DNA of 64,000 bases from an uncultured Alphaproteobacteria bacterium (lineage in GTDB: Bacteria; Pseudomonadota; Alphaproteobacteria; Rs-D84), in NCBI GenBank assembly GCA_947054455.1, contig CAMRWN010000002.1:120104-184103 (forward strand), given 5' to 3'. This document shows positions 15,349-53,356 of this stretch, in pieces (positions within the stretch are counted from its first letter, which is position 1; each line of letters begins with the position of its first letter). The position numbers and the translations under genes are program-made. The notes below the pieces were generated by a model. That model was not told the DNA's origin, did no database searches, and worked only from the letters and a program-made list of their open reading frames with translations.

Positions 15349-16365
15349 ATGGCTACAAATTGGGGAGATGTTACTTGGAATGAATATGGGGAATTAGTAT
15401 TGGATATCTATAAACAACCTCCGGAAACAAAAGATGATACAACTAATAAACCGAAACATACATATAAAGAAATAGATTGTGGTGGTGAATGTGGCGGGTG
15501 TGTTGCGTTGGTTGTTGATGGCAAGGTTGTGTCTGGGCCGCCGTTCCACCCGAACTGTAAATGTTCTTTGTCGGGAAAAGATATTGAGGAAGCGCCTGAA
15601 CATGAATCTAATTTAGGTAATCCGGTTGGACGCGACAGAAATTCTGAACCAAGGGACGTTAAATGGTTGAAAGATGCTCTAAATAAACTTGGGTTTTATG
15701 ATCCCGATACCAGAGCCGGTGAAACACCAGATGATTTAAATGAATATCCTAACCAGAATTTGTTTGATGCGATTAATAAATTCCAACGCGAACATGGATT
15801 GCCCGAACGTGGCATTGTGAAACCCGGTTATCAAACCGAAGCCAAAATAAATAATGAATTGCAACATCAAACAAAAGAACCAAAAGCAGATTTTGAATAC
15901 AATGGCTCAACCTTTAAAGGACCAGTCAATGCAAAAGATAACCAATATGCAGTCTTTGATGGCAAAACATTGGCTGTTTATGATGGTGGTGAAAAAGTTG
16001 CTGAATTTGCCGGGGTGTCCGGCAAGCCAGGATATCAATCTCCAGAATATCAAAATAAAACAGATACTGGGCCGATTCCACAAGGAACATATGTTGCGAG
16101 AAAAAAAGATTTTCAAAATAGAGATGATTATGGCCCTATAAAAAAATATACTTCGTGGCCTGGTGGTGAACATGGTTGGGGAAAACATAGAGTATGGTTG
16201 GAACCCTCTAAAGAAACAAATACGTTTGGTCGAGGTGGTTTCAGTATTCATGGTGGCGACGAGCCCGGTTCTGCGGGTTGTATTGATCTAACAAATGAAA
16301 TGCCAGGATTTGCAACTTGGTTCAAAAATAATGGAAAAGATTTAATTATTAAAGTAAAATACTAA
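15349..16365 (+). CDS. Tlde1-like (DUF2778) L,D-transpeptidase-fold toxin candidate with a MuF-like Cys motif and peptidoglycan-binding domain
   Basis: 338 residues in three parts. Residues 40-75 hold C44, C48, C51, then HPNC (67-70) and C72; this C-x-C...HPNCxC pattern resembles the end of phage Mu gpF-type head proteins. Residues about 103-170 look like a PG_binding_1 domain (WLKDALNKLGFYD, FQREHGLP). Residues about 195-338 match DUF2778/Tlde1 enzymes: GPIPQGTY, FGRGGFSIHGG with His301 and GSAGCIDL with Cys311, the catalytic pair. Family knowledge: Tlde1 enzymes cut or exchange peptidoglycan stem peptides in rival cells. No signal peptide. A/T-rich codons unlike the neighbours suggest transfer. 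It shares its Cys motif with the lysozyme fusion at 51966-53138. Confidence 0.8.
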   Translation: MATNWGDVTWNEYGELVLDIYKQPPETKDDTTNKPKHTYKEIDCGGECGGCVALVVDGKVVSGPPFHPNCKCSLSGKDIEEAPEHESNLGNPVGRDRNSEPRDVKWLKDALNKLGFYDPDTRAGETPDDLNEYPNQNLFDAINKFQREHGLPERGIVKPGYQTEAKINNELQHQTKEPKADFEYNGSTFKGPVNAKDNQYAVFDGKTLAVYDGGEKVAEFAGVSGKPGYQSPEYQNKTDTGPIPQGTYVARKKDFQNRDDYGPIKKYTSWPGGEHGWGKHRVWLEPSKETNTFGRGGFSIHGGDEPGSAGCIDLTNEMPGFATWFKNNGKDLIIKVKY

Positions 16366-31011: not shown

Positions 31012-31081
31012 ATTATGTTTATTTTTCTCTTGCGCCATATGTTTGATTTTTTCTAGAATGACATATAAAAGAGAGGAAAAT

Positions 31082-34000
31082 ATGAGGAAAAAGCGCTGTT
31101 TCCTAGTTTTTTTAACGTCTTTGTGTCTTGCATTTTTTACCGCCGGCGCAATGGCGGCTGGCTATATTTGCCCGGATTTAAAGCAATATACATCCTGCAA
31201 CACGGGGTATTATCTTAACTCGGCCGAGATAGGAAACGCGTGTGTTCTGTGCAGCACGGCGGCCAATAGAACATCCACCCAATCATGCACGCGTACATGC
31301 ACAACAACGGAACTGACCAACCTGCATGCGACAGCGGGAACCGTGTCCGGCGCAACGCAGACATGCGCGGGTAATTTCCAGACGGGAACTGGCGGCGAGA
31401 CCGTGGGAACGGGTTCGTGTAGCGGGTGTTCCACATGGGGAACATGCGGCGGCGGCACATGCGCGGCCACGTCGTGCGTCGCCGGCTATTATTTCGGCAG
31501 CAATACATGTTCGGCCTGTTCGGCGCTGAATAATACAGCAGTATTGTCAAACACGACAATAACGGGCGGCGGAACACGCACAAACAAATGTACCGGCAAA
31601 TACACCGGCGGTGCCGGCGGCACCAAGGGCAGCAGTGAATGTACAGGATGCAGCGCATCCACATGGTCATGCACATGTCCGGCGGGCTTCCACGCTGTAA
31701 ATCAGGGTACCAGCACATGCAACTGCGAAGCGGACACAGTCAGCGTTTCTTATAATCTGAACGGCGGCGCCGGCACGACGCCGACGGCGACAACATGCAC
31801 ACTGAACGCATCTTGCACGCTGCAGTCGGGCGACACCACGTCTTTCTATCGCGCAGGCTATGTGTTTACCGGCTGGTCCACGTCGACAACCGGCACAGGT
31901 TCGTCATCCGGCACGTTCAGCGCAAATACGACCGTTTATGCAATATGGACGCCGTGCGGCACCGGAAAATACAAGGGTGCCGGCACAAAAGCCGCCGCGG
32001 CATGCTCGGCATGTCCTGTGGCATATCCCAACACAACGGCAACGACATCGACCCTAATCACACAATGCTACAGCGGGACCAAGAAACGCTCGTCGACTGG
32101 CGCACACTTGGAAAAACTGCCCCAGGGCTGTAAAAGCGCAACATACACGGACTGCACCCCGGCGACATGCGATTACGTAGCATATTCAAACAGCGCAGGC
32201 ACCGGCGACGGCGAATTAAAAAGCGGCTGTGCGACAAACACCAATACATGCGACAAGCCTGTTAAAACCGTTATCGCTGATGTGAACCACTGGGCGTCTT
32301 CGACGGCAACCAGCTGTACGGCATGCGATGCGTCCTATCCGTATTCACCCGCCGGAACAACGGCCGCGGGCAAATGCTATCGCAACTGTACAACTGCCGA
32401 CGTAAACGGCGCAACCGCGGTGTCCGGAACCGTCCTGCAGGAAGGAACACGCTCATGCCGCGCCACAACATGCGACAGCAGTCATTGTATCGCCAGTGGC
32501 GGCGTCTGTATGACAAAGCCGACATATGGCACATGCAGTGGCAATCCTGACAACCCCCTTACCTGCAATACCGGGTATGAATTGTCTGCGGACAAACTGA
32601 ACTGCGAAGCAAAAACATTCACCGTTTCATATTCGTGCGGCGACGGCACGGGAACAAAACCGTCCAACGCCAATATCAAATACAACCAGTCTTTTACCCC
32701 GGCAAACAACACGTGCACCCGTGCATCGTGGCAGTTTGGCGGATGGACAGTATCCGGCACGTCGGACGTCAAACAGGCGGGCGCCGCATTCAAATGGCTT
32801 TATACCGAAAATAAAACATTCACCGCAAAATGGATTCAGACGGCGGGCAACTGCACCGCGGGCCAGTATTACAACGGCACCGTGTGCCAGTCATGTCCGT
32901 CCGGATACACATCAAATGCCGGCGCGACCGCACAATCCGACTGCTACAAGGATTCCACAACCGCGTGTACCAATCCGGGCGTAAACAAAAACTGCCCGTC
33001 GAACGCAAACGCGTGTGATTACGACACCAGCGTCAAGGTACCCTGCCGCCAGCAATACGGCAGCAGCACCTGCACCCCAACCGGAACCGCCACGTGTCCC
33101 ATCAAAACAGGCAGTGTTTCGTGCAACGCCAATTATTACCAGGACAGCGACAACTGCCTATCATGCGCCGATCTGGGTGGGAACTACACATATTCCGGCG
33201 GTGGCGACGGCGGCAGTGAAATCTGCTATGAAAAGTGCAAATTTGCATGCGACGCGTCCCTGTTGTGTCCGGCCAACGCCACCTGCACCAACGTCAGCGA
33301 CACCATAAACGGTGGTAAATTCTATCCGTCAAAAACGTGTACGCCATTTGCAGGAAACACATGTCAAATAACATTCACATGCAATACCGGATATTCAAAA
33401 AATAACAACTCATGCCAGGCAAACGTTTACGCAATCACGCTGGATGACAACGGCGGCAGCGGCGGCAGCGGAACCGTCTATGAAAAATACAACACGGGAT
33501 GGTCGCTGACAAACTTTGGCACGACGGTATCAAAGGTGCGTATCCCCACGCGCAGCAACTATACTTTCCTGGGATACTTTGAGGCCCGCACAGGCGGCAC
33601 CGCGGTGATTGCCGCGAACGGCACGCTGCCGGCCAACACCAAGTACGTGTCTACAAAAACACTGTACGCGCAATGGTCCCAGGACAATTTCTATTGCACC
33701 GCCGGGAAAAGCGCATCGGGCGCAGCGTGCGCGGCTGGTTCTTACTGTCCGGGTGGAACAGTGCCGGCCGGTACGGAAAACAATACCACAACCGGGTGTC
33801 AGCGCACATGTCCCGCGGACGCCAAGGGCGGCAATGTTTCATCACCCACAGGTGCGACATCCCGCGACCAGTGTTCTGCGACACGCACAAACTATTCGGA
33901 TGCCAGCATGCACGGGCGCGCGAATCAAACATGCCTGTACGGAACGTCGGAATACAACCGCAGCTGTACCATTGAAATAACCAGCTGCGAGGCCGGATAT

Positions 34001-37000
34001 TACCGCGCATCCGAAGCGGATACGACATGTACCAGCACCGATATCGGAACATACAGTCCGGCAAACGACCTGCGGGCGTATTCATGCCGCGACCTGAACG
34101 GGGCGAACGCCACCACCACCACCGAAAACAGAAACGCGGCGGCGGCAACCCAGTGCTACAATACATGCTCTAATATCAAGATTGACAACGGAACGCGCGT
34201 CCCGGAAAATTCCAAAGAATACTATACGGGTACGACCATACCGGCGTGCCGCTATACAACGCAATGCACGACCGGATATCAGGCATCGGGCGACACATGC
34301 GTGCCAAGCGTCTATAAAATCACCCTGAACCATGACGGCGGAACATCCGCAACGGCGGAAATCTTCCTGAAATACAACACCGGCTGGTATTCTGATTCCG
34401 CCGCAACGCGCGTGCTGACATCCATCGTGCTGCCGACGAAGCCGGGTGGATTTACATGCTATGGATACACATACGGAAACACAATCGTAGTTGATCAGGA
34501 CGGTGCGCTGACATCTGATTACAAACTGTTCACGGCACCGGCGACAATTCGCGCAAACTGGGAACAAAACCCGCAGATAACATGCGCGGCCGGCACATAT
34601 TATACAGGGACCGGAACAACATGCACGAAATGTCCGGCGGGTTCATATTGCACGGGAACAACCACATTCCAGGACATCGGCACCAGCACGGGAATTGCAA
34701 CATGCGCGTCCCTGAACGGAACATATACCAGCGCCGTAAACGCGTCCGGTCAGACATTGACCACTGAAATCGGGTCAAATGCGGGCGCAACCGGGCCGGG
34801 ATTGTGCTTTGCCACAAACGTCGCATACCGCCCCGCCAGCAATTCCGGAACGGGCAAGCAAACATGTTATTACAACACGTCCACCAGAAGCTATATAGCA
34901 AACTGTGAATCCCAGCAGATTCTGACCTGTGTCGAAGGATATTATCTGGCCAGAAACACCGACACTGACTGCAGCGTTGCCGGACACGGATACTACAGTG
35001 CGGCCAAAACACTGGAACGCACGGCGTGTCCGAATCTGGGTGAAACCGCGGGTGTAACAACCAAAAGCGAAACATCCGGTGATATTACAAAATGCTATCT
35101 GGGCAACATATGGTACGAACCGGCCGGCGGCCACAGCGGCCACAGACGCAGCTGCTATCATATAAACGACGCATCGATTACAGATGTTTCGGCCGGATAT
35201 AGCTATAACTGCGATGTATCCGTGATTGTCAGCTGCGATGCCGGATACTATGACAACGGTGCGTATAAAAACGACAACGGCGAACGCGACTGTATCGCGG
35301 TGGAAAAGAACTACTACAGCCCTGAACAGGCGTTCTATACGCCCGGCAATGATCGTCCGGACCAGAACAACCCGGGTATGTCTACAAAAAGATACGCATG
35401 TCCGGATTCGGGTCTGACCGACACGCGTTATGGCGCACGCGACAGCGAATGCTATAAGCAGTGCCGTGAAATCGCAATTGATAACGGAACAGGCATTGTA
35501 CCGGTCGGAATGGAAAAAGTATTCTATGAAAACACGGCGTATCCTGTATGCTTGTACACGGCGCAATGCGACGAAGGATTCACCCCGGCCAGCACCGAAC
35601 CGACGGCCAATCCGTCCTGCGGCGTATGTCCTGAAAACCATTATTGCGGCGACGGCGGCACCCAGAACAGCTGTCCGGCATCACATCCTTATTCGGATGC
35701 GGGCGCAACAGACCGCAGCGCATGTTATAAAAACTGCGAACTGGCGCAAAACGCACAGGAAATGTCCGGTCGCGAATACGCCAACGGCACCAGCACGTGT
35801 AAAATAACCGCGTGCGTTGCGGGGACATACCTGACCGGGGACAGATGCGTCGCCTGCCCGGCCGGTAAAATCTGCACGGGCGGAACAACACCGCCGACAG
35901 ACTGTCCGGAAAACTCCTATTGTCCGTCCGGTTCCGACGAGCCGATGGCATGCCCGGCGGAATTCCCGCTGTCCGCGGCAAACACGACAAGCATAAGTGC
36001 ATGTTATAGAAACTGCACGATTGACGACGTCGAAAATTCCGACAGCGTCAGCGGCACCATAACGCAGGCTGGGGTTAACACCTGCGTGGCAACATCGTGC
36101 AAACCGGGTGCATATATGACGGGTCAACACTGCACCATTTGTCCGGCGGGCAGCATATGCGACGGTGGAATCACGCCACCGACAGACTGTCCGGCAGACT
36201 CATACTGTCCGTCCGGTTCGTCCGACCCCATCGCGTGTCCGGCAACGCACCCCAATTCACCCGCGGGGACAACGGATGCACACGGATGCTATCAAACATG
36301 CGAAGAATACGCACTGGACGGCGGTACGGCCATACCCGATGCAGACAAGGCGTTCTGGGAAAAAGTATGCCAGTACCATGGTATTTCCGACACGGAAAAT
36401 CCGTGTGAAATTATCGGCGACAGATGTGTGGAAAAATCATGCCACAGTAATTTTGAGCTGATTGACGGTAAATGCCGCCTGTGCAACCGTGAAAACGTGA
36501 TGTCATACAAACCCACAGGCAACTGCATACCGCAGACATGCGTGCTGGGCTGGCACCCAAGCGGCCTGTATTGCGAAGAGGATGTACGGGAATGCACCGC
36601 CCCCAACGCAACATATGCCGAACAGACATGGAACCCGAAACTGGGGGCATTTGGAATATGCACCGTACGCGAATGCGATGCGGGATATCATCTGGCGTCG
36701 AATGCATGCGTGCCGGACGAACAGGCCTGTACGGTTGAAAACGGCGTCGGAATACGCGAATGGGACCAGGTCGCCAACAAATGGGGTGCGTGCCAGGCGA
36801 CATCATGTAATCCGGGATACACAAACGACCCGTCTGAAACCAACGAGCACAGCAAACCGTGCGGCCAGTGCAAGAACAAATTCAGCGTTCTGGGCGAACA
36901 GGCGGCCAGCAGTTATGTGCGCGGATGCGAAATCGCGTCATGCATGTACCAAGGCGAGATATATAATCTGGATAACAACGAATGCGTGCCGATTTGCATA

Positions 37001-37084
37001 GACGACAGCGACGACACCGGAACAATACGCCGCGTCGGCAATAAATGTATCCGAACATGCAACGAAGGATATACGGCATGGTGA
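31082..37084 (+). CDS. Giant secreted cysteine-rich repeat protein with InlB-type (Flg_new) repeats
   Basis: 2000 residues with a signal peptide (MRKKRCFLVFLTSLCLAFFTAGAMAAG); start 31082 has GAGAGGA. Very rich in Cys, Thr, Gly and Asn. Four units with the (Y/F)xxxYxxNGG...F.GW...AxW pattern of Listeria-Bacteroides InlB repeats lie at about residues 220-292, 513-586, 782-867 and 1077-1161. Between and after them are EGF-like or TNFR-like Cys units such as CPAGSYC and CPSGS; two near-identical blocks (CPAG.IC.GG..PPTDCP) lie at about 1589 and 1685. No membrane anchor or autotransporter domain is seen. Probably a surface or matrix adhesin stabilised by disulfides. Binding partner unknown. Confidence 0.88.
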   Translation: MRKKRCFLVFLTSLCLAFFTAGAMAAGYICPDLKQYTSCNTGYYLNSAEIGNACVLCSTAANRTSTQSCTRTCTTTELTNLHATAGTVSGATQTCAGNFQTGTGGETVGTGSCSGCSTWGTCGGGTCAATSCVAGYYFGSNTCSACSALNNTAVLSNTTITGGGTRTNKCTGKYTGGAGGTKGSSECTGCSASTWSCTCPAGFHAVNQGTSTCNCEADTVSVSYNLNGGAGTTPTATTCTLNASCTLQSGDTTSFYRAGYVFTGWSTSTTGTGSSSGTFSANTTVYAIWTPCGTGKYKGAGTKAAAACSACPVAYPNTTATTSTLITQCYSGTKKRSSTGAHLEKLPQGCKSATYTDCTPATCDYVAYSNSAGTGDGELKSGCATNTNTCDKPVKTVIADVNHWASSTATSCTACDASYPYSPAGTTAAGKCYRNCTTADVNGATAVSGTVLQEGTRSCRATTCDSSHCIASGGVCMTKPTYGTCSGNPDNPLTCNTGYELSADKLNCEAKTFTVSYSCGDGTGTKPSNANIKYNQSFTPANNTCTRASWQFGGWTVSGTSDVKQAGAAFKWLYTENKTFTAKWIQTAGNCTAGQYYNGTVCQSCPSGYTSNAGATAQSDCYKDSTTACTNPGVNKNCPSNANACDYDTSVKVPCRQQYGSSTCTPTGTATCPIKTGSVSCNANYYQDSDNCLSCADLGGNYTYSGGGDGGSEICYEKCKFACDASLLCPANATCTNVSDTINGGKFYPSKTCTPFAGNTCQITFTCNTGYSKNNNSCQANVYAITLDDNGGSGGSGTVYEKYNTGWSLTNFGTTVSKVRIPTRSNYTFLGYFEARTGGTAVIAANGTLPANTKYVSTKTLYAQWSQDNFYCTAGKSASGAACAAGSYCPGGTVPAGTENNTTTGCQRTCPADAKGGNVSSPTGATSRDQCSATRTNYSDASMHGRANQTCLYGTSEYNRSCTIEITSCEAGYYRASEADTTCTSTDIGTYSPANDLRAYSCRDLNGANATTTTENRNAAAATQCYNTCSNIKIDNGTRVPENSKEYYTGTTIPACRYTTQCTTGYQASGDTCVPSVYKITLNHDGGTSATAEIFLKYNTGWYSDSAATRVLTSIVLPTKPGGFTCYGYTYGNTIVVDQDGALTSDYKLFTAPATIRANWEQNPQITCAAGTYYTGTGTTCTKCPAGSYCTGTTTFQDIGTSTGIATCASLNGTYTSAVNASGQTLTTEIGSNAGATGPGLCFATNVAYRPASNSGTGKQTCYYNTSTRSYIANCESQQILTCVEGYYLARNTDTDCSVAGHGYYSAAKTLERTACPNLGETAGVTTKSETSGDITKCYLGNIWYEPAGGHSGHRRSCYHINDASITDVSAGYSYNCDVSVIVSCDAGYYDNGAYKNDNGERDCIAVEKNYYSPEQAFYTPGNDRPDQNNPGMSTKRYACPDSGLTDTRYGARDSECYKQCREIAIDNGTGIVPVGMEKVFYENTAYPVCLYTAQCDEGFTPASTEPTANPSCGVCPENHYCGDGGTQNSCPASHPYSDAGATDRSACYKNCELAQNAQEMSGREYANGTSTCKITACVAGTYLTGDRCVACPAGKICTGGTTPPTDCPENSYCPSGSDEPMACPAEFPLSAANTTSISACYRNCTIDDVENSDSVSGTITQAGVNTCVATSCKPGAYMTGQHCTICPAGSICDGGITPPTDCPADSYCPSGSSDPIACPATHPNSPAGTTDAHGCYQTCEEYALDGGTAIPDADKAFWEKVCQYHGISDTENPCEIIGDRCVEKSCHSNFELIDGKCRLCNRENVMSYKPTGNCIPQTCVLGWHPSGLYCEEDVRECTAPNATYAEQTWNPKLGAFGICTVRECDAGYHLASNACVPDEQACTVENGVGIREWDQVANKWGACQATSCNPGYTNDPSETNEHSKPCGQCKNKFSVLGEQAASSYVRGCEIASCMYQGEIYNLDNNECVPICIDDSDDTGTIRRVGNKCIRTCNEGYTAW

Positions 37085-44543: not shown

Positions 44544-45019
44544 CAATAATTAACCGTAACAGTATATGTCCCGTTATAGGTACCGGGCGCCTGGTTGGCG
44601 CCGACATTCAGATTCGCACCAACATTCAGCGTCAGATTTCCGGACGCGTCGGTGGTGTTGCTGGTCGGTGTGGTTGTTGACGTGAAAGTGTCAATCGTCA
44701 TGGAATTTGAACCGCTGGTGACCGTGCCATTTGAAAACGTTATGGTCAGTGCAGTCGACGGCGCCGCCGTTATGTCAAAATGCCCCGCAGCCGCCGTGCC
44801 ATACGTGGTCAACGTCGCAGATGTGGCAGCCCCCGCCGGCGACAGTGTCACGACCCCCGCCGTGGCCCCCGGATTGACGGTACCAAAGTTCATTTGTTGT
44901 GTCTGGGTTGCGGTAATCGCGCGTTGAATGACAACAGACGCGTTTCCCGTGGCGTTGACAGCATGCGCCGCGCCCCCCAGTCCCGCGAACAATATCGCGG
45001 CAGTCAGTATTTTATTCAT
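44543..45019 (-). CDS. Secreted DUF4402 pilin-like subunit, short form
   Basis: 158 residues with signal peptide (MNKILTAAILFAGLGGAAHA). The mature part has AITATQTQQMNFGTVNPGAT, FDITAAPSTALTITFSN and the terminal NVGANQAPGTYNGTYTVTVNY pattern of DUF4402 proteins, which occur with chaperone-usher genes. Probably the main fibre subunit: first gene of the four-gene operon, with the best ribosome binding site (AGGAGGG). Confidence 0.85.
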   Translation of the reverse strand: MNKILTAAILFAGLGGAAHAVNATGNASVVIQRAITATQTQQMNFGTVNPGATAGVVTLSPAGAATSATLTTYGTAAAGHFDITAAPSTALTITFSNGTVTSGSNSMTIDTFTSTTTPTSNTTDASGNLTLNVGANLNVGANQAPGTYNGTYTVTVNY

Positions 45020-45206
45020 TTGATGTGCCCTCCTGTATACTTATTGTATTGCAGGTGCGCATATATTGCCATTGGCGCATATTCCCAAACAAACCGAGAC
45101 TTAGGCCGCAACAGAATCAACCATAGATTGAATTTTTAAACAAATAAGCCATATTCATTGCATTTGCAAGCATACGAACACTATGCGCCAAAATTGCACA
45201 ATATTC

Positions 45207-46031
45207 CTACCGCTGTTTAATTGTGAATAATTCAGGCTCTTCTTCAATGGGACGCTTGCGCAACAAGCACCTTATAAATGACAGATATTTATGGTTTTCA
45301 TTGAAAATTTGCAATATTTCCATCCATCGCTGTCTTATTGCAACTAAATCCTCTAAGGGCAATGATTTTATATGCGGCTTTGACATAAAATAATCCACAT
45401 ATTCAGCCAGTCTTTCATCGGACTGTGAAGCCAATGGAACAGTCTCCAGTTTATATACCTCAAAAACCTTATTATTCGTATAAATTTGCATCCAGTCATC
45501 TGCTGTCATGTAATTAATTTTTACCCCGATAATTTCTGATACTTTATCTAACAACTGACGCGGTGGACGGGAATGATAAAAAAGATTGCAAACAGAACAA
45601 AATCCCCAATTACTTAAAACGCGATGCATTTCAGATACGGCCCTAGACTTGTCATCCATAAAAGATGTTGCCCCACCAGATATTATTAAATCAATCGACT
45701 GATCAGCACATGGAATATCATATGCTGACGCAACAACAAATTTTACTAACTGTTGAATCTGGGGCGTATCACGCAACAACTCTTGATTAGCAACAGACAC
45801 CGCGGCTTCAGACACATCTATTCCCAACACATTAGCTCGAATTAATCTTGCCACCTCCAATGAAGAAAAACCTGTATTTGAGCCTATTTCCAATACACGA
45901 CTGTTTTGATTTGCAAAAGAATTTTGCAAAATCCAATTTATTGTATCTTTGCCACCCGGGCAACGATTTGTTTCCCGCAACAGAGAAATGAAATCCACAT
46001 ATGGCATTTTATAGTATTTGTCCGAAGACAT
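45207..46031 (-). CDS. Class I SAM-dependent methyltransferase in the aaRS-like island
   Basis: 274 residues. SAM-binding motif I is RVLEIGSNTGFSSLEVARLI, motif II LGIDVSEAAVSVANQELL, then IDLIISGGATSFMDD and HRVLSNWGFCSVCNLFY (post-motif). It starts 11 bases after the AsnRS-like gene with a perfect AGGAGG, so the two form one transcript. Target unknown; a small-molecule product of the island is the natural guess. AT-rich codons (AAA, ATT, TTA) set it apart from the pilus operon beside it. Confidence 0.85.
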   Translation of the reverse strand: MSSDKYYKMPYVDFISLLRETNRCPGGKDTINWILQNSFANQNSRVLEIGSNTGFSSLEVARLIRANVLGIDVSEAAVSVANQELLRDTPQIQQLVKFVVASAYDIPCADQSIDLIISGGATSFMDDKSRAVSEMHRVLSNWGFCSVCNLFYHSRPPRQLLDKVSEIIGVKINYMTADDWMQIYTNNKVFEVYKLETVPLASQSDERLAEYVDYFMSKPHIKSLPLEDLVAIRQRWMEILQIFNENHKYLSFIRCLLRKRPIEEEPELFTIKQR

Positions 46032-46042
46032 ATAATTCCTCC

Positions 46043-47053
46043 TTATGGCATTGATACATTATCATAATCGCGTAGTAAAATTGCACAATCACGTATGTCA
46101 TCATGTCTTAAAATCCACAAAATAAAGCGCTCTATTCCCAATCCAAAGCCACTTGTTTGTAATGGACATATTTCACGCATATGCCTATACCACTGATATT
46201 CAGAACCATCAACATTGTGCGCAATCAAGGATTCATCCAAATCTGCCACAGTCTTGACACGTTGACCACATCCCAGTATTTCTCCGATACCTGCCAATAA
46301 GTCTGAAGCAACCGCAGCACCGTCTGTCGTACCGCGCGCCTGATAGAATGGAACCAGCAGCCACGGTAAATCCGTTAACCAAATAAAATCCCCATATTGT
46401 TTTAGCAAATGCTGTTCTCCAATTTTGGTTATATTATACAAGCAATCAGATATTTGTGTGGTTGAATTGGGAATATCTTTTAATATTTCAACAGCATCGC
46501 CATATGCCAAGCGGCTAAAACCACGCTCTAATGCAGCTTGCAAATGTTCCACACCACCAGCGACCTGACATATACCATCAGCATTATGTTCCAGCAAATA
46601 CTGTATCATATACTTTATATAACGTTCTGCCAAATCCATTACATCATCTATTGTCCCCGGTATTTCAGCCTCAGAATGGATAAATTCATTCAAATGACGC
46701 TCATCAGTTTGTTCCCCTCGAAAAGTTGGCATTATATAATACGCCCCACGCCCCGACAAACGTGCCCCGATTTCTAGAGAAAATTGCATCGAGTCTGCCA
46801 AATAAACTTTATTTCCACGAATATTTACAGCCACTGGCACAGAGTCGCTGCCCAGTCCCATTGGACTACTAATCGAACCTGTTGTAATAGGAAACATCAT
46901 GGGGCATATATTTTCTTTATGATAGAACCGATGCGTGGCCTCAAATATGCTTTTATATATATTGCACAATATGCGATACCAAGGATCTTTTAATAGAACA
47001 TCTATGTGGTTGTTTGGAGTTTTCCATGATTTAGGAGCAGATATTTTACTCAT
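46043..47053 (-). CDS. AsnRS-like class II synthetase catalytic domain without anticodon-binding domain
   Basis: 336 residues. Matches the Asn/Asp-tRNA synthetase core: VYLADSMQFSLEIGARL (compare YLTQSxQLYLE), motif 2 MPTFRGEQTDERHLNEF with Arg112 and HLNEF at 120-124, SEAEI, and motif 3 GFGLGIERFILWILRH with Arg309 near the C-terminus. AsnRS is about 430-470 residues with an OB-fold anticodon domain first; here the chain goes straight into the catalytic core. Such paralogs make amino acid adenylates for other uses, for example asparagine synthetase A-like enzymes of archaea. Predicted to activate Asp or Asn. First gene of a pair with the methyltransferase; ribosome binding site AGGTGG. Confidence 0.85.
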   Translation of the reverse strand: MSKISAPKSWKTPNNHIDVLLKDPWYRILCNIYKSIFEATHRFYHKENICPMMFPITTGSISSPMGLGSDSVPVAVNIRGNKVYLADSMQFSLEIGARLSGRGAYYIMPTFRGEQTDERHLNEFIHSEAEIPGTIDDVMDLAERYIKYMIQYLLEHNADGICQVAGGVEHLQAALERGFSRLAYGDAVEILKDIPNSTTQISDCLYNITKIGEQHLLKQYGDFIWLTDLPWLLVPFYQARGTTDGAAVASDLLAGIGEILGCGQRVKTVADLDESLIAHNVDGSEYQWYRHMREICPLQTSGFGLGIERFILWILRHDDIRDCAILLRDYDNVSMP

Positions 47054-47192
47054 TTTACCACCTATCTCATTTTCACAAAATAACTAGCATATATATTTCA
47101 TAAAATCAACTGATATTAACGCGTTATTATGTGTTGTAATATTTTTATAATAACGGTATACTAATAATTATAATAAACCAAATGGAGTTAAC

Positions 47193-48266
47193 ATGAAAGA
47201 GCTTATAAAGCCAAACGCGTTGAAACCCGGTGATATAGTTGCAACCGTATCTTTGTCATGGGGCGGTGCAGGTTTATTGCCAGAACGTTATAATCATGGA
47301 AAACAACAAATTGAAGACACATTTGGAGTCAAAATTATTGAAATGCCCAACTCTATGAAAACAGATGAGTTATACGATAACCCTGAATTAAGACTTGGCG
47401 ATTTAATGGATGCATTTAAAAATCCCGACATCAAAGCAATTCTGACAAATATCGGTGGCAGCGATACTATACGACTGCTTCGCCATATGACCGACGAACA
47501 CTGGGAAATAATGCGCAAAAATCCAAAAATATTCTTAGGCATGTCAGATACAACGGCAAACCATTTTATGTGTATGAAAGCTGGGATATCTTCTTTCTAC
47601 AGCCCATCAACAATGTTTGGATTTGGTGAAAATTGCGGTATTTGCGATATAACAATCAAAAGTGTAAAAAAAACTCTGTTTCAGAATAATCCAATCGGTG
47701 TATTGCCACAATCGGATACATTCATTGTTGATAAGATTCGTTGGGATGATAAAAATAACACTTATCGTGAACGCACACAAACCGATGGTTGGCATTTTAT
47801 CCAAGGCACAAATATAGCCCAGGGCCGCCTAATTGGCGGATGCATGGAAGTTTTACAAATGATAAATGGCAGCCGTCTATGGCCATCGCTTGATGAATGG
47901 GATAACACAATACTGTTTATTGAGACAAGTGAAGATATGCCTTCTCCTTCTACATTCTCATATTTTTTACGCAACCTTGGCGCCCAAGGTATTTTAGACA
48001 AAATTAATGGCATTTTATTCGGGCGTCCCGGTGGCGAATTTACAAAAGCCCAAGAGGAAGCAAAAGAAAAATGGCTGAATAAATATAAAGATTTTGATAA
48101 ATATTTGTTAAAGGTTTGCAAAGAATACAACCGAACAGATTTACCGATTGTAAGCAACATGGATTTTGGTCATACAGTACCGCAGATATTATTACCTTAT
48201 GGTGCAATGGCTCAGATTAATCCGATACAGAAGACAGTGTCAATAATAGAATCTGCGGTAAAATAA
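47193..48266 (+). CDS. S66 family serine peptidase, MccF-like
   Basis: 357 residues. Ser-Glu-His carboxypeptidase fold: nucleophile Ser118 in FLGMSDTTANH, Glu in LFIETSEDMPS, His in NMDFGHTVPQ. LTNIGGSDTIRLL is the conserved N-terminal glycine turn. Length and the SDTT loop are closer to MccF than to LdcA. MccF cleaves the amide between aminoacyl-nucleotide and its carrier and so gives immunity to microcin C; LdcA trims muropeptides. Divergent from the AsnRS-like gene across a 139-bp AT-rich promoter region; GGAG ribosome binding site. In this setting a self-protection enzyme is the favoured idea. Confidence 0.85.
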   Translation: MKELIKPNALKPGDIVATVSLSWGGAGLLPERYNHGKQQIEDTFGVKIIEMPNSMKTDELYDNPELRLGDLMDAFKNPDIKAILTNIGGSDTIRLLRHMTDEHWEIMRKNPKIFLGMSDTTANHFMCMKAGISSFYSPSTMFGFGENCGICDITIKSVKKTLFQNNPIGVLPQSDTFIVDKIRWDDKNNTYRERTQTDGWHFIQGTNIAQGRLIGGCMEVLQMINGSRLWPSLDEWDNTILFIETSEDMPSPSTFSYFLRNLGAQGILDKINGILFGRPGGEFTKAQEEAKEKWLNKYKDFDKYLLKVCKEYNRTDLPIVSNMDFGHTVPQILLPYGAMAQINPIQKTVSIIESAVK

Positions 48267-48268
48267 AG

Positions 48269-48296
48269 AACATTCCCTGATAACACAGGGAATGTT
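48269..48296. terminator. Terminator hairpin between convergent genes
   Basis: Perfect 11-bp stem aacattccctg/cagggaatgtt with 6-base loop; T-tail weak. Confidence 0.7.
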
Positions 48297-49383
48297 ATCG
48301 GGACAGCATATCTTTATACTTAAAATACAGCGGATATAGCTCGGCTAGGCGACGCTGAACACTTGACTCTTCTGTACCCAATCTATATTGATTTTTTATA
48401 AAAGCATCCGCATGTACAAGCTGTTGACTCAGTCTGTATTGTTCCGCGGAAAAATCTTTCATTAATGTTGATATATTGTTTGTATTATTAAATTCAACAT
48501 TCATATAATCTGATAATATTCCAGCTATTTGGTAATCATTTAAATGATTGCGCATTTTTAACAAAGCTAAATTTACCAGCATTTTCTGCAATAATCTTTT
48601 ATAACCTATACCGGGATGTTCTTTTAAAGACATGCCTGTTGAATACGCACTAGCCACAGTGGAAAAAATATGTGAATTAGTAAAATTGGTATCAAAACCA
48701 TATTTCTTCAGAACCGGCGCAATAGCAAAGGCATCGTATTCATTTTGATATTGTTCTGTTCTAGCCAGCAACACTTCAATACCCACACCATATTCAGCCC
48801 CTATCATGCGCCCGTCATTAAATATTGCTATATATTGTCCGATACGCTTGTACTCCCCCGTATCCTGACGCAAATAAAAAGTTATTCCACGCCCTTTGAC
48901 TTTATCACCCATGCCATAAGTCCAGTTGTATGACTTTTCTGGCCTAGTATCATATTCAACATCATAATAATGCCGAAAGTGTTCAATTAATATTTTATCC
49001 TGTCTTGACGCATTAACTTTGACTTTATTCGCTGATATACCCTGATCCGATATAAGATCGGCGACAACATCTTGAAAATCAACAACAGCATCTGCTGGAA
49101 CCAAAGTTCCAAGCATATTAAAATAACCAGGATAGCGCACTTTTAATCCGGAATAAAACGGATCTGTCATTGATTGCAAACGCAGACACGGCTGATGCAA
49201 ATAAACGCCACGGTCATTTATTTTCTCATCTAACAACATATTTTTGAGCGGCGTTATGGTAGCGCTAGCAAAATATACCGTTTTATCGTATGTTAATAGC
49301 GGCGAAGGCTGATGCCACGTCAAACCATATCGCTGACATGATTGAAAAAATTTATCTTTGATAATTGAATGACGTAAGTCCAT
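48295..49383 (-). CDS. AlaRS-like class II catalytic-domain protein
   Basis: 362 residues that align by eye with the catalytic part of alanyl-tRNA synthetase. VYFASATITPLKNMLLD resembles LLFTNAGMxQFKxxFLG. QPCLRLQSMTDPFYSGLKVR and YPGYFNMLGTLVPAD resemble QKCxRxxD...RHxTxFEMLGNxSFGD (motif 2). GVGIEVLLARTEQYQNEYD resembles the motif 3 GMGLER...ID, and YKRLLQKMLVN resembles the YxLRRIIRR helix. AlaRS is about 870 residues; the tRNA-recognition C-terminal part, the editing and C-Ala domains are absent. It should bind ATP and a small amino acid. Translated after the kinase gene (18-base gap). I know no named function for it. Confidence 0.72.
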   Translation of the reverse strand: MDLRHSIIKDKFFQSCQRYGLTWHQPSPLLTYDKTVYFASATITPLKNMLLDEKINDRGVYLHQPCLRLQSMTDPFYSGLKVRYPGYFNMLGTLVPADAVVDFQDVVADLISDQGISANKVKVNASRQDKILIEHFRHYYDVEYDTRPEKSYNWTYGMGDKVKGRGITFYLRQDTGEYKRIGQYIAIFNDGRMIGAEYGVGIEVLLARTEQYQNEYDAFAIAPVLKKYGFDTNFTNSHIFSTVASAYSTGMSLKEHPGIGYKRLLQKMLVNLALLKMRNHLNDYQIAGILSDYMNVEFNNTNNISTLMKDFSAEQYRLSQQLVHADAFIKNQYRLGTEESSVQRRLAELYPLYFKYKDMLSR

Positions 49384-49401
49384 TATGGCAATGATAATAG
49401 A

Positions 49402-49908
49402 TTAAAATTTCGTAAAATCAATCAAATTTGATAATTTTTTGATGTTATTACTGCGGACAATCTTATACGAGACTCCTGCTTTATCCAGTTTGTTTTTCAA
49501 TATCGGCCAATAGATTGTATCATATTTATGATCCCAGCACAATAAATCCCACAAAGCACGAATAGACATTGTACGCAAAGACTCATTATAAAAAGCACGT
49601 TTAATGCAGCGATAATGACGCCGCCAACGTCCCACCCGTAAAACAATGACAAAATCTACATTTTCTAAAATTGCGTCTATCCAATCATGGTAATAAACAC
49701 CATCACAAATCCATTCAGAATTCTTGGAAATAAACCCAGCAATTATTTCTTTACGCTCGCTGACGGTACGACTATCAATAAATCTTTTACCAGCATCATT
49801 AATCCATTTTACTGCATCTAAATCCAAATAAGAAACACCCTTTCGTGTTGCAACCGCTTTGGCCAGCGTGGTCTTTCCGCTGCCGGAACCGCCCGTAATA
49901 TAAATTCT
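49402..49908 (-). CDS. P-loop kinase (adenylate/shikimate kinase-like, FlaR/topology-modulation type)
   Basis: 168 residues. Starts MRIYITGGSGSGKTTLAKAV with a clean Walker A, then YLDLDAVKWIND (substrate Asp), ICDGVYYHDWIDAIL and VIVLRVGRWRRHYRCIKRAF, a pattern of small P-loop nucleotide or metabolite kinases. ATG 49908 chosen because the strand before the P-loop starts there; an upstream ATG adds 14 residues. Leads the AlaRS-like gene in one transcript. Substrate unknown. Confidence 0.78.
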   Translation of the reverse strand, partial: RIYITGGSGSGKTTLAKAVATRKGVSYLDLDAVKWINDAGKRFIDSRTVSERKEIIAGFISKNSEWICDGVYYHDWIDAILENVDFVIVLRVGRWRRHYRCIKRAFYNESLRTMSIRALWDLLCWDHKYDTIYWPILKNKLDKAGVSYKIVRSNNIKKLSNLIDFTKF

Positions 49909-50001
49909 CATGCAACATAGGATATCTTTATTTTTACTAAAAACAAGCATTTTTACTTGTGATATTTTATAGTTATTGTACAGTTTGTCCAGAGGTCTTA
50001 T

Positions 50002-51246
50002 ATGAAACAGGTCCTAATAATTGGTGTTGGCAGTCGTGATAATTTCAAAGACAGATATATTTTATCTGAACTATCAAGGTTGCCTCATAATATATTTATT
50101 GCCAAAAGCACATACGATGACTATTGGTTCAAAGAATATATAAAAACCACAAATGTATTATCCCTAGATTTTTCAGATATTACTAATTGTATTGCCCAGA
50201 TTTCATATTGGTGTGAAACAAATAATATATATTTTGATGCCATATTCTCATTCAAAGAACACATGGTCGCCCAAGCATCTATAATCGCCCAAGCATTCGG
50301 GTGTATTCATACAAGTCTAGATAACATTTTTAGGGCGTCAAACAGTAAATTACTGTTTCGCAAACACTACAATACCATTGACAACCAAGATGTTATAAAG
50401 TCAGAAATAATACTTCTGGACAACTTCGATAACTTCGAAAAGTTGCCAGAAATAAAGTCTGCCATGGTTATAAAACCACTTTTTGGTTCCAGCAGCTGCG
50501 GCGTACGGCAAGTTTTACCGGGCGATGATATTGCAAGTATAATCGCAGACTCTAAACAGGCTATATCCGATAAATTCAACACCGCACATAATCGTGGCTT
50601 TTTATTAGAAAATTATATAAAAGGTCCCGCATTTAGTATTGACGGTATTATTCAAAATAACACCATTCATTTTGCCGGTATAAACGAATACATGTATGGC
50701 CCTTTGCCATATTTTGTTCAGACAGGAAATATAATACCGGCTTCGCTTTCAACAGACCAAACGAATTTTTGCAAAAATGCCCTGCAGAATCTTATACATC
50801 ACTTTGGATTTAACAACACCCCTTTTCATGCAGAAATTATTATCAACAGAGACAAAATATATTTGATAGAAATTGCATGTCGCATGCCGGGCGGCAAGAT
50901 ACCACGCGGATATGAGTTGGCCTATGGATTTCACTTTGTCGAACAAGTGGTAAACCTATATCTTGGACTGCCTGTAAACTTTGAACACAAAACAAATTTC
51001 CAGATAATCCAAAAAGGGAAACATATATTTAACGATTGTGTAATTGAGTCTATCTGCATACCTGAAGATATAGGTACTATAACAGATTTTTCATTACTAA
51101 CACAGGAAGGCGAAAAAAATCAATATCCTTCACACAATAAGCCAATTTATTTTTATACGGTACGAGCAAATAGTTTGGATAAAGCACATATAAAATCTCA
51201 TAAGATTGAAAAATCCATAAAGATTAAAACCAAGCTTAATAATTAA
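50002..51246 (+). CDS. ATP-grasp ligase (amino acid/peptide ligase-like)
   Basis: 414 residues. N-terminal Rossmann-like part (MKQVLIIGVGSRDNFKDRYIL), then ATP-grasp: MVIKPLFGSSSCGVRQVL (lysine and glycine-rich loop), FLLENYIKGPAFSIDGII (hinge and E-x-Y-I-x-G), and the metal site PFHAEIII... IYLIEIACRMPGGKIPRG (Glu and Arg, compare EINPRxGG). This pattern fits L-amino acid ligases such as BacD and DabC-type peptide synthases. Ribosome binding site AGAGG. Last gene of the island, divergent from the kinase/AlaRS-like pair over 93 bp. Predicted to form an amide bond via an acyl phosphate. Confidence 0.85.
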   Translation: MKQVLIIGVGSRDNFKDRYILSELSRLPHNIFIAKSTYDDYWFKEYIKTTNVLSLDFSDITNCIAQISYWCETNNIYFDAIFSFKEHMVAQASIIAQAFGCIHTSLDNIFRASNSKLLFRKHYNTIDNQDVIKSEIILLDNFDNFEKLPEIKSAMVIKPLFGSSSCGVRQVLPGDDIASIIADSKQAISDKFNTAHNRGFLLENYIKGPAFSIDGIIQNNTIHFAGINEYMYGPLPYFVQTGNIIPASLSTDQTNFCKNALQNLIHHFGFNNTPFHAEIIINRDKIYLIEIACRMPGGKIPRGYELAYGFHFVEQVVNLYLGLPVNFEHKTNFQIIQKGKHIFNDCVIESICIPEDIGTITDFSLLTQEGEKNQYPSHNKPIYFYTVRANSLDKAHIKSHKIEKSIKIKTKLNN

Positions 51247-51325
51247 AACGAAACCGCCGCCAGAACTGCGCTCCAATACATAAAGACGTGTTTTTTTGAT
51301 TTCACAGTCAATCCATTTTTTAGTA

Positions 51326-51540
51326 TTACACACCCACTATTAAATCTTTACCCACAGACTTAAACAACGCAACAAAATTTTTAATATTTCTTGTAATATC
51401 AATACACCCGGCTGAACTAGAAAACCATCCCCCGTGAATACTAAATCTATCACGGTCGTATGTGTTTGTCTCTTTGGATGGTTCCAGTCAGACACAAAAA
51501 TTACCGGACGATATTGTATTGACTAAGTATGCGAAAATGG
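51326..51540 (-). pseudogene. Second decayed Tlde1-like gene (C-terminal part)
   Basis: Minus-strand translation gives LEPSKETNTYDRDRFSIHGG, then WFSSSAGCIDITRNIKNF and GKDLIVGV, stop at 51326-51328. It matches the end of the intact protein at 15349-16365 (LEPSKETNTFGRGGFSIHGG, GSAGCIDL, GKDLIIKV). The catalytic His and Cys are kept, but the Trp before LEPSKE is a TGA stop at 51488-51490 and the rest of the gene is missing. The other feature here is the open extension of the 51555 gene on the opposite strand. Confidence 0.85.
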
Positions 51541-51965: not shown

Positions 51966-53138
51966 TTATCTATACCCACTATAATCTGCATTTTGAAACA
52001 ATCGCCATTCTGCATCCCGACGTCTATCTAAATCTCCATGGTTTCTAAATGCTCTCCAAGCGGATTCTGGTGTTGGATATGTATTACTGCGATAATTTTT
52101 ATCATTTATATATTTACGAATAGTTGATTGATATAGCCCCCTATTCACATTTGCTGGCGCACCAGAACCTGGACCAATATTGAACACCAATGCAACAAGC
52201 GCATCATATTGATGTTGAGGCATTGCCGCTAAAACATCATGATTTATTTGTTTAGCTATTGTGTCATATGTAGACTGTAAATCTCGATGGAATAACTCTG
52301 TCGCCTCTTTTTCGGTCAAACCTTTACTAAAATCGTCACCAGTTTTTATCAAGTGTCCATAACCAATTGTCGCACCAGGCGGTAGGGGGGCACCGGCCGA
52401 AACAGGCAGCCCAGTTGCATCATTGTAGATAACGTGTTTTCCATCTATTTTCACACATCCTTCTAATGATTTCAGCCATTCTATTCCTTTGTCGCTTATT
52501 TTCATATTTCTGATATCCTTTTCTATTTCATTCTTTTTTTCTTTTGATGAATACGGCTTGCTACTGATAGTACGACCGTCAGTGCCAATAACGTCCTCTG
52601 TGATACTGCAGCGACAATTGGGATGTAGCGGGATTTGCGGGATATCATCTTCGTTGTCATATATTTCACCATCACGTAATGCGCATTCTTCACAGGTGTC
52701 ATCCTCTTCTTCGGCATGCCAGCGCCACACACGACGCGTTTTGCCGTTTGGTATATTGTCATTCTCCGGCAAATCAAGACTATAAAACTCTAACTGTTTA
52801 TTTTCGATACGGCCATCCGGCAGCAGAACGCGAACGTCTATGTTTTCTTCCAATTCTACATAGTCTTCAACATCTATCTGCTGACCGGATTCTTCATATT
52901 CTGCCTCGGCCTGTGCGATGGCTTCCCCAAGTTCGGCATCCAGCTTCGCCTGAGCTGAATTAAACTGTTGCAATGTCATATCGTATTCCGGCGCAGCCAT
53001 GCGTCCCGTGGCATCTGTTTTTGCCATGCCGGGATACAGCATTTTCATATACCGCTCCACCATGGCATACGTCTTGCTGTTTTTATCCATATATGCGGGC
53101 GACGACATTAGTTGTCGTAAAAATTCTGGTGTTTTCAT
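51966..53138 (-). CDS. GH24 lysozyme fused to a MuF-like Cys-motif head
   Basis: 390 residues. Residues 1-140 are helical and acidic. Then a motif C149-x-x-C152 ... HPNC (172-175) and C177 like phage Mu gpF-type head proteins and like the toxin at 15349. Residues about 213-390 form a T4-type lysozyme: SLEGC with catalytic Glu226, DATG, TIGYGHL (258-263), QYDALVALVFNIG, and the tail FRNHGDLDRRRDAEWRLF. It cuts peptidoglycan glycan strands. No phage genes lie around it, so it is either a phage remnant or a free-standing toxin. Start 53138 has AAAGGA; the extended frame upstream runs through tRNA-like repeat sequence. Confidence 0.85.
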   Translation of the reverse strand: MKTPEFLRQLMSSPAYMDKNSKTYAMVERYMKMLYPGMAKTDATGRMAAPEYDMTLQQFNSAQAKLDAELGEAIAQAEAEYEESGQQIDVEDYVELEENIDVRVLLPDGRIENKQLEFYSLDLPENDNIPNGKTRRVWRWHAEEEDDTCEECALRDGEIYDNEDDIPQIPLHPNCRCSITEDVIGTDGRTISSKPYSSKEKKNEIEKDIRNMKISDKGIEWLKSLEGCVKIDGKHVIYNDATGLPVSAGAPLPPGATIGYGHLIKTGDDFSKGLTEKEATELFHRDLQSTYDTIAKQINHDVLAAMPQHQYDALVALVFNIGPGSGAPANVNRGLYQSTIRKYINDKNYRSNTYPTPESAWRAFRNHGDLDRRRDAEWRLFQNADYSGYR

Positions 53139-53199
53139 TTGTGATTCCTTTAGGTAAATAAAAAAAAGATCCCACAGAACTGCGGGGGATGAGTTATAT

Positions 53200-53221
53200 T
53201 CCTGGCGGAGACGAAGGGATT
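53200..53221 (-). repeat. Copy of tRNA-Ser 3' end next to the lysozyme gene
   Basis: 22 bases (tcctggcggagacgaaggga, then tt) are identical to 53399-53420, the 3' end of tRNA-Ser(GGA). The tRNA body is missing. A terminator of the type seen behind the other tRNA-Ser genes follows it (about 53165-53192). The 178 bases between the copies hold no gene. Confidence 0.85.
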
Positions 53222-53356
53222 GTATATTCCCACCGCTGTTGCGGCGGGCCCCTTTCGCTACGTAAGGCTCAAACTTCGTCATTGAACTGACTCGTTTTCG
53301 CCAACTGACGCCCCGAACCCTGCAACTTGCGTTGCGAATGTTTCGTCCACGCTTCT

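Follow-up and report, generated by a model that had tools for sequence, protein, structure and literature searches.

Two synthetase-like proteins, a peptidase, a ligase, a kinase and an S-adenosylmethionine (SAM) enzyme stand together in an uncultured alphaproteobacterium; what do they make? The window analysed here, 64,000 nucleotides of contig CAMRWN010000002.1, lies in a draft genome of 728 kb and 85.85% completeness (G000), whose nearest relatives are uncultured Alphaproteobacteria with small genomes (0.5-1.1 Mb) that we infer to be gut-dwelling and Enterousia-like. An earlier sequence-only reading of the six genes at 45207-51246 had proposed an aminoacyl- or peptidyl-nucleotide-like product. 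Our analysis supports this class of compound, as the AsnL enzyme is related to AgnA of agrocin 84, the SAM enzyme MT resembles MccD and the S66 peptidase resembles MccF of microcin C, and the set co-occurs in other genomes. We consider it likely that the product of the cassette is an alanyl- or peptidyl-alanyl-phosphoramidate nucleotide, which as a stable alanyl-adenylate mimic would inhibit alanyl-tRNA synthetase (AlaRS).

A discrete accessory cassette

All six open reading frames (ORFs) are present at the positions described earlier, and their orientation fits the four transcripts then proposed: AsnL>MT (minus), S66 (plus), Kin>AlaL (minus) and the ATP-grasp gene (plus). The features of the cassette are:

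45020..51425, no strand: accessory cassette in its full extent, set by the limits of flanking homology to the empty site of a relative (G160)
45207..46031, minus strand: MT, class I SAM enzyme of the MccD family, predicted phosphoramidate-phosphate alkyltransferase (phmmer and plasmid matches); second gene of AsnL>MT
46043..47053, minus strand: AsnL, stand-alone AgnA-type enzyme with the asparaginyl-tRNA synthetase (AsnRS) fold, predicted phosphorus-nitrogen (P-N) bond synthetase (identity, tree, intact motifs)
47193..48266, plus strand: S66, MccF-like (BA3275-type) serine peptidase family member (5F9M match, 6.1e-98; residue columns)
48295..49383, minus strand: AlaL, truncated AlaRS-like protein, predicted Ala-tRNA-dependent alanyltransferase (AcmF-type substitutions, profiles, predicted fold)
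49402..49950, minus strand: Kin, small P-loop kinase (GGSGSGKTT), predicted nucleoside or product kinase; first gene of Kin>AlaL
50002..51246, plus strand: Grasp, ATP-grasp ligase predicted to attach an amino acid or peptide carrier (Pfam, nearest solved relative)

The cassette has a guanine-plus-cytosine (GC) content of 36.7%, against 49.0% for the whole window. Base use had been described as unlike that of both neighbours, which holds on the left, where the flank has about 55% GC; the right flank (51.2-53.3 kb) is itself lowered, to 40.8%. Profile searches recovered the Pfam families tRNA-synt_2, Peptidase_S66 with S66C, ATP-grasp_4, Methyltransf_11 and a P-loop kinase among the cassette proteins, as anticipated for the AsnRS-like, peptidase and ligase genes, and gave no relevant or confident match for AlaL. 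The nearest solved relative of Grasp is an L-amino acid ligase.

Of the order's 201 genomes, 5 have AlaL (51-100% identity), and there are two further remote copies. The cassette recurs in the four other genomes, whole where contigs permit: all six genes stand in the same order in G126 and in a different arrangement in G144, five precede a contig end in G088, and in G177 S66, AlaL, Kin and Grasp share one contig while a broken second S66, MT and AsnL lie on another. A further relative, G160, has the same chromosomal position without the cassette, flanked by the DUF4402 gene on the left and by hyp51462, lysozyme and mtaB on the right. Its homology to the window ends near 44968 (the gene ends at 45019) and restarts at 51425; roughly 0.5 kb of unrelated DNA takes the place of the cassette. 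The six genes are thus a discrete accessory block, gained or lost together, and their recurrence in other genomes, on which the earlier inference depended, combined with the empty site places the set beyond chance.

Neither the window AlaL nor the protein A2 found relatives in phage records, plasmids or viral contigs. Carriage by phages was rejected, a remote AlaL copy having given weak partial matches in phage records and nothing more. A genome-contig scan with A2 returned only four known loci; since its peptide patterns were strict, absence of AlaL beyond the order is unproven. Class-wide sampling for AlaL and phylum-wide sampling for AsnL were both negative. The remote AlaL homologues (22-25% identity; L013:5986-11264 and L014:5952-9777) have radical SAM genes and a gene for an S51 peptidase as neighbours, and AsnL is missing from both loci.

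AsnL and MT resemble enzymes of nucleotide antibiotics

AsnL has the AsnRS fold of the AgnA clade, without an anticodon-binding domain. It is 43-44% identical over its full length to AgnA and its relatives in plasmid clusters, and its best matches among 72,556 plasmid records (37-48%) are AgnA of pAgK84 and proteins of Xenorhabdus, Exiguobacterium, Peribacillus, Pantoea and Streptomyces. Most plasmid matches are annotated as 'asparagine synthetase A' or 'amino acid--tRNA ligase-related', and several lie in biosynthesis-like clusters; further down follow a Bradyrhizobium protein (35%) and true AsnRS (22-31%). In the phylogeny, the AgnA clade, including AsnL, stands apart from AsnRS with support of 100/99. 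The class II ATP motifs are intact (R112 and E114 in motif 2, R309 in motif 3), and these motif residues are invariant across ten AsnL members. AsnL scores 231.2 bits with the NCBIfam model for asparagine synthetase A (PRK06462), below the cut-off of 389, so by this test it is not that enzyme; score and tree together rule out both an asparagine synthetase and an AsnRS.

AgnA is a truncated AsnRS homologue that has become a biosynthetic enzyme (PMC4392301); the open-licence literature searched does not give the precise reaction. On a Bradyrhizobium elkanii plasmid (L054:6763-10548), S66, the 35% identical AsnL relative, a HAD hydrolase and a class I SAM enzyme lie in a row near nodU.

The 'methyltransferase' of the sequence-only reading is a SAM enzyme, although its closest kin points to another transferred group. 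Its best PDB match by phmmer is MccD (5FCD, 8.8e-28; next best 3.6e-09), which puts an aminocarboxypropyl or aminopropyl group on the microcin C phosphate (PMC10491745). The best plasmid matches of MT are AsnL clusters, followed by E. coli plasmids that carry the mcc gene set as a ThiF-MFS-MT-GNAT / S66 operon. Plain methylation, as in phosmidosine, is a possible but not the preferred reading. The 24-kb plasmid of E. coli ATCC 25922 carries an apparent microcin C operon of this kind (L053:5364-11347; S66, GNAT, MT, MFS, ThiF).

AlaL resembles a tRNA-dependent alanyltransferase

The AlaRS kinship of the second synthetase-like protein, proposed from sequence, is upheld by three lines of evidence. 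A hidden Markov model built from seven AlaL rows matches AlaRS N-termini throughout the order, and the 13 best PDB matches of the predicted fold are all AlaRS. By hhalign, AlaL reaches 96.4% (1.4e-09) with AlaRS-related proteins of Peribacillus and Exiguobacterium, versus 77% (2e-05) with AlaRS. The protein comprises the AlaRS core and tRNA-recognition region only, and has no editing domain.

Two adenylate-forming enzymes had been expected, both with their ATP-binding residues. AsnL retains them; AlaL has lost them. Where 20 of 20 AlaRS agree, all five AlaL proteins differ: Gln replaces Asn (Q183), Glu replaces Asp (E197), the motif 2 Glu has become Asn, and the motif 3 Arg has become Val. An active adenylating synthetase was therefore rejected, and AlaL probably forms no adenylate. 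The ascamycin enzyme AcmF, compared here by its published description, is likewise a truncated AlaRS-like protein with the same two replacements (N219Q and D232E), lacks most ATP-binding residues, and transfers alanine from Ala-tRNA onto a nucleoside sulfamate (PMC12945691). By analogy, AlaL appears to be an AcmF-type transferase that draws on Ala-tRNA. No match to AlaRS itself was found in the G000 draft (85.85% complete), though most genomes of the order carry one; the draft is probably missing that stretch.

The S66 protein is MccF-like with an altered nucleophile column

The closest solved proteins to S66 are of the B. anthracis BA3275 type, followed by MccF, with LdcA remote. It scores 44.6 bits with the LdcA-type model (cut-off 378), and the low score and MccF-type structure matches rule out LdcA; the protein does not group with this enzyme of peptidoglycan recycling, in line with what the sequence-only reading required. 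Of the catalytic triad, Glu and His are retained, and Thr occupies the MccF catalytic Ser column in all five cassette members. Elsewhere this column holds Thr in Peribacillus, Ser in E. coli MccF, AgnC5 and Bradyrhizobium, Cys in Xenorhabdus and Leu in Streptomyces. Behind the G126 cassette (L010:15087-17768), a second S66 gene with Cys in this column is accompanied by an S51 peptidase gene and two Nudix-like genes; together they may confer resistance to nucleotide antibiotics.

Related clusters and known systems

The AgnA-type enzyme occurs in 11 of the 201 genomes, five with AlaL and six with a stand-alone ProRS-like core (prolyl-tRNA synthetase-like) in its place. The six Pro-type sister clusters are:

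L066:7847-13310
L067:7966-13264
L069:603-5898
L068:4428-9814
L071:1816-5697
L070:76-2273

All carry S66 and a SAM enzyme save L070, which lies at a contig end. A second ProRS of 425 aa, which shares 38-39% identity with the housekeeping enzyme of its own genome, is present in three of the six. In the Bacillota clusters (Peribacillus, Exiguobacterium), AlaL stands alongside a second AlaRS of 595 aa. A dedicated second aminoacyl-tRNA synthetase (aaRS) occurs in L045, L046, L047 and L050, and in the three Pro-type gut clusters.

The cluster of the Peribacillus psychrosaccharolyticus plasmid (L050) shares AsnL, MT, S66, AlaL and an ATP-grasp gene with the cassette. It differs in its second AlaRS, its MFS transporter, an AlaL with the motif 3 Arg, and an ATP-grasp protein merely 18% identical. 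A ProRS-like core is also found in a cluster on a Streptomyces plasmid:

L049:9914-18056: Streptomyces sp. NBC_01707 plasmid cluster with AsnL, MT, flavin adenine dinucleotide (FAD) and molybdopterin proteins, a ProRS-like core and S66

With the cassette it has AsnL, MT and S66 in common, as well as a class II aaRS core that stands alone and is ProRS-like here; its molybdenum-hydroxylase and P450 genes are absent from the cassette. We take it to be a candidate phosmidosine cluster, its content fitting the chemistry of that compound.

Three known systems each share part of this plan. Agrocin 84 (pAgK84: agnA, the adjacent MT gene, agnB2 and agnC5) has an AgnA-type enzyme, an adjacent MccD-family MT and an MccF-like S66; unlike the cassette, it lacks an AlaRS-like core and, in the stretch examined, any annotated ATP-grasp gene, and it carries a resistant leucyl-tRNA synthetase (LeuRS) and acyl-tailoring genes that are missing from the window. 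Nudix genes seemingly common to the agnA region and the gut clusters gave a weak match only and were dropped. In ascamycin, AcmF works with AcmD, whereas the cassette has no AcmD-like AlaRS partner; the acceptor there is a sulfamate, and that of the cassette would be a phosphoramidate. The microcin C operon (mccB-F) shares an MccD-family enzyme and an MccF-like S66. The cassette differs from it in having no ThiF-type MccB, recognised MccA peptide, MccC transporter or MccE, and the P-N step is assigned to AsnL instead. Profile searches found no ThiF protein among the cassette genes, and a very short peptide gene may have gone undetected.

The sequence-only reading knew no described pathway with this set. 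This stands for the whole combination, which is undescribed in the open-licence PMC literature searched, with an earlier description in subscription papers possible; it does not extend to the key parts, each of which has a described counterpart in agrocin 84, ascamycin or microcin C.

Proposed pathway and its alternatives

The catalytic steps, their order, the product and its target that we infer are as follows. AsnL would form the nucleotide P-N bond, perhaps by attack of an Asn side-chain amide on the ATP alpha-phosphate, and the MccD-like MT would then alkylate the phosphoramidate phosphate. S66 may strip the aspartyl part to leave a nucleotide phosphoramidate (P-NH2), or protect the producer. 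The AcmF-like AlaL would shift alanine from Ala-tRNA(Ala) to this P-NH2, and the ATP-grasp ligase could mask the compound or aid its uptake by attaching an amino acid or peptide. The kinase may act on the nucleoside or inactivate the product.

Several observations weigh against this alanyl-phosphoramidate pathway. The second AlaRS and the exporter are not in the window cassette, and no second (resistant) aaRS was found among the window ORFs. The S66 nucleophile column holds Thr, shared with Peribacillus, and Cys, Leu or Ser in other clusters. Bacillota AlaL proteins retain the Asn and the motif 3 Arg, so that the AcmF-like loss is not family-wide and these proteins may be less derived, and the AlaL model is of moderate confidence (predicted local distance difference test 74, predicted template modelling score 0.62, five sequences). 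The Xenorhabdus bovienii cluster combines a LeuRS with a ProRS-like core, breaking the rule that the core matches the target. To our knowledge, no product is known for clusters of this composition.

The strongest alternative concerns S66 alone, and leaves the rest of the pathway in place: the protein may serve purely in self-immunity, with no biosynthetic step, which we regard as nearly as probable as not. MccF hydrolyses aminoacyl-nucleotides and shields producers (PMC9239234, PMC7916415), and with no resistant AlaRS encoded in the cassette some protection is needed. However, S66 is also found in clusters that already have a second aaRS (L045, L047, L050), and in several clusters Thr, Cys or Leu stands at the position of the catalytic Ser. 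The sequence-only reading allowed for protection or processing; MccF likeness is borne out, and a plain immunity hydrolase is made uncertain by the Thr at the nucleophile position. By cutting the carboxamide bond, MccF yields a nucleotide phosphoramide (PMC9239234), which is what an aminoacyl transferase needs; by this analogy S66 may be a biosynthetic step rather than immunity.

It is unlikely that the cassette makes a different small molecule with the same enzyme class, such as an intracellular acyl-phosphoramidate signal or cofactor with S66 as its processing enzyme. The gut versions have no exporter or second AlaRS and the usual AlaRS is retained elsewhere in four of the five carriers, as such a role would suggest, yet the closest clusters point to aaRS inhibitors: agrocin 84 has its resistant LeuRS, the Bacillota clusters an extra AlaRS and an MFS transporter, and Pro-type clusters an extra ProRS.

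We find it quite improbable that AsnL is an asparagine synthetase feeding a genome-reduced cell, with S66, Kin and MT as loose resistance genes against nucleotide antibiotics. The nearest NCBIfam model does bear that name, and MccF-type S66 or S51 peptidases (MccG) alone suffice for microcin C resistance (PMC9239234); on the other side stand the failing model score, the grouping with AgnA, three proteins (MccD-like, AlaL and ATP-grasp) that are not resistance genes, and the gain or loss of all six genes as a single block. Similarly improbable is a non-enzymatic AlaL acting as a toxin-binding decoy or a resistance AlaRS fragment, which the lost ATP-binding residues and motif 3 Arg would allow, since AcmF with the same substitutions is an active transferase and AlaL keeps more than 100 invariant residues at 51-83% identity in five genomes.

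Returning to the alanyl-phosphoramidate pathway, a wider generalization is offered only tentatively. AgnA-type P-N synthesis with Asn as nitrogen donor, an MccF-like S66 deaspartylase with a Thr nucleophile, and an exchangeable, tRNA-dependent, aaRS-derived transferase (AlaRS- or ProRS-like) may form a modular route in which the transferase sets the amino acid and hence the target synthetase, genome-reduced gut bacteria swapping this module. If true, three separate nucleotide-antibiotic chemistries would be joined in one swappable plan, with the stand-alone synthetase core predicting the amino acid and so the target. Genome-reduced gut Alphaproteobacteria, unexpected hosts of specialised metabolism, would also become a source of antibiotics directed at AlaRS and ProRS. 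Two questions become testable: how AgnA-type enzymes form or use the P-N bond, and why MccF-like genes stand in clusters already equipped with a resistant synthetase.

Other features of the window

An anti-phage defence role was rejected, PADLOC having given weak generic matches only. One further feature lies between the convergent S66 and AlaL genes:

48269..48296, minus strand: terminator-like hairpin of 11 bp

Such hairpins number 5 sites in the region against 4.2 expected, which is statistically weak. Two window proteins (51966-53282 and 15349-16365) share a phage-head-like Cys motif ending in HPNC(R/K)C, fused to peptidoglycan-acting parts: a lysozyme in the former and an apparently YkuD-like end in the latter. 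Finally, 31043-37084 encodes a Cys-rich repeat protein of surface type, 2013 aa long.

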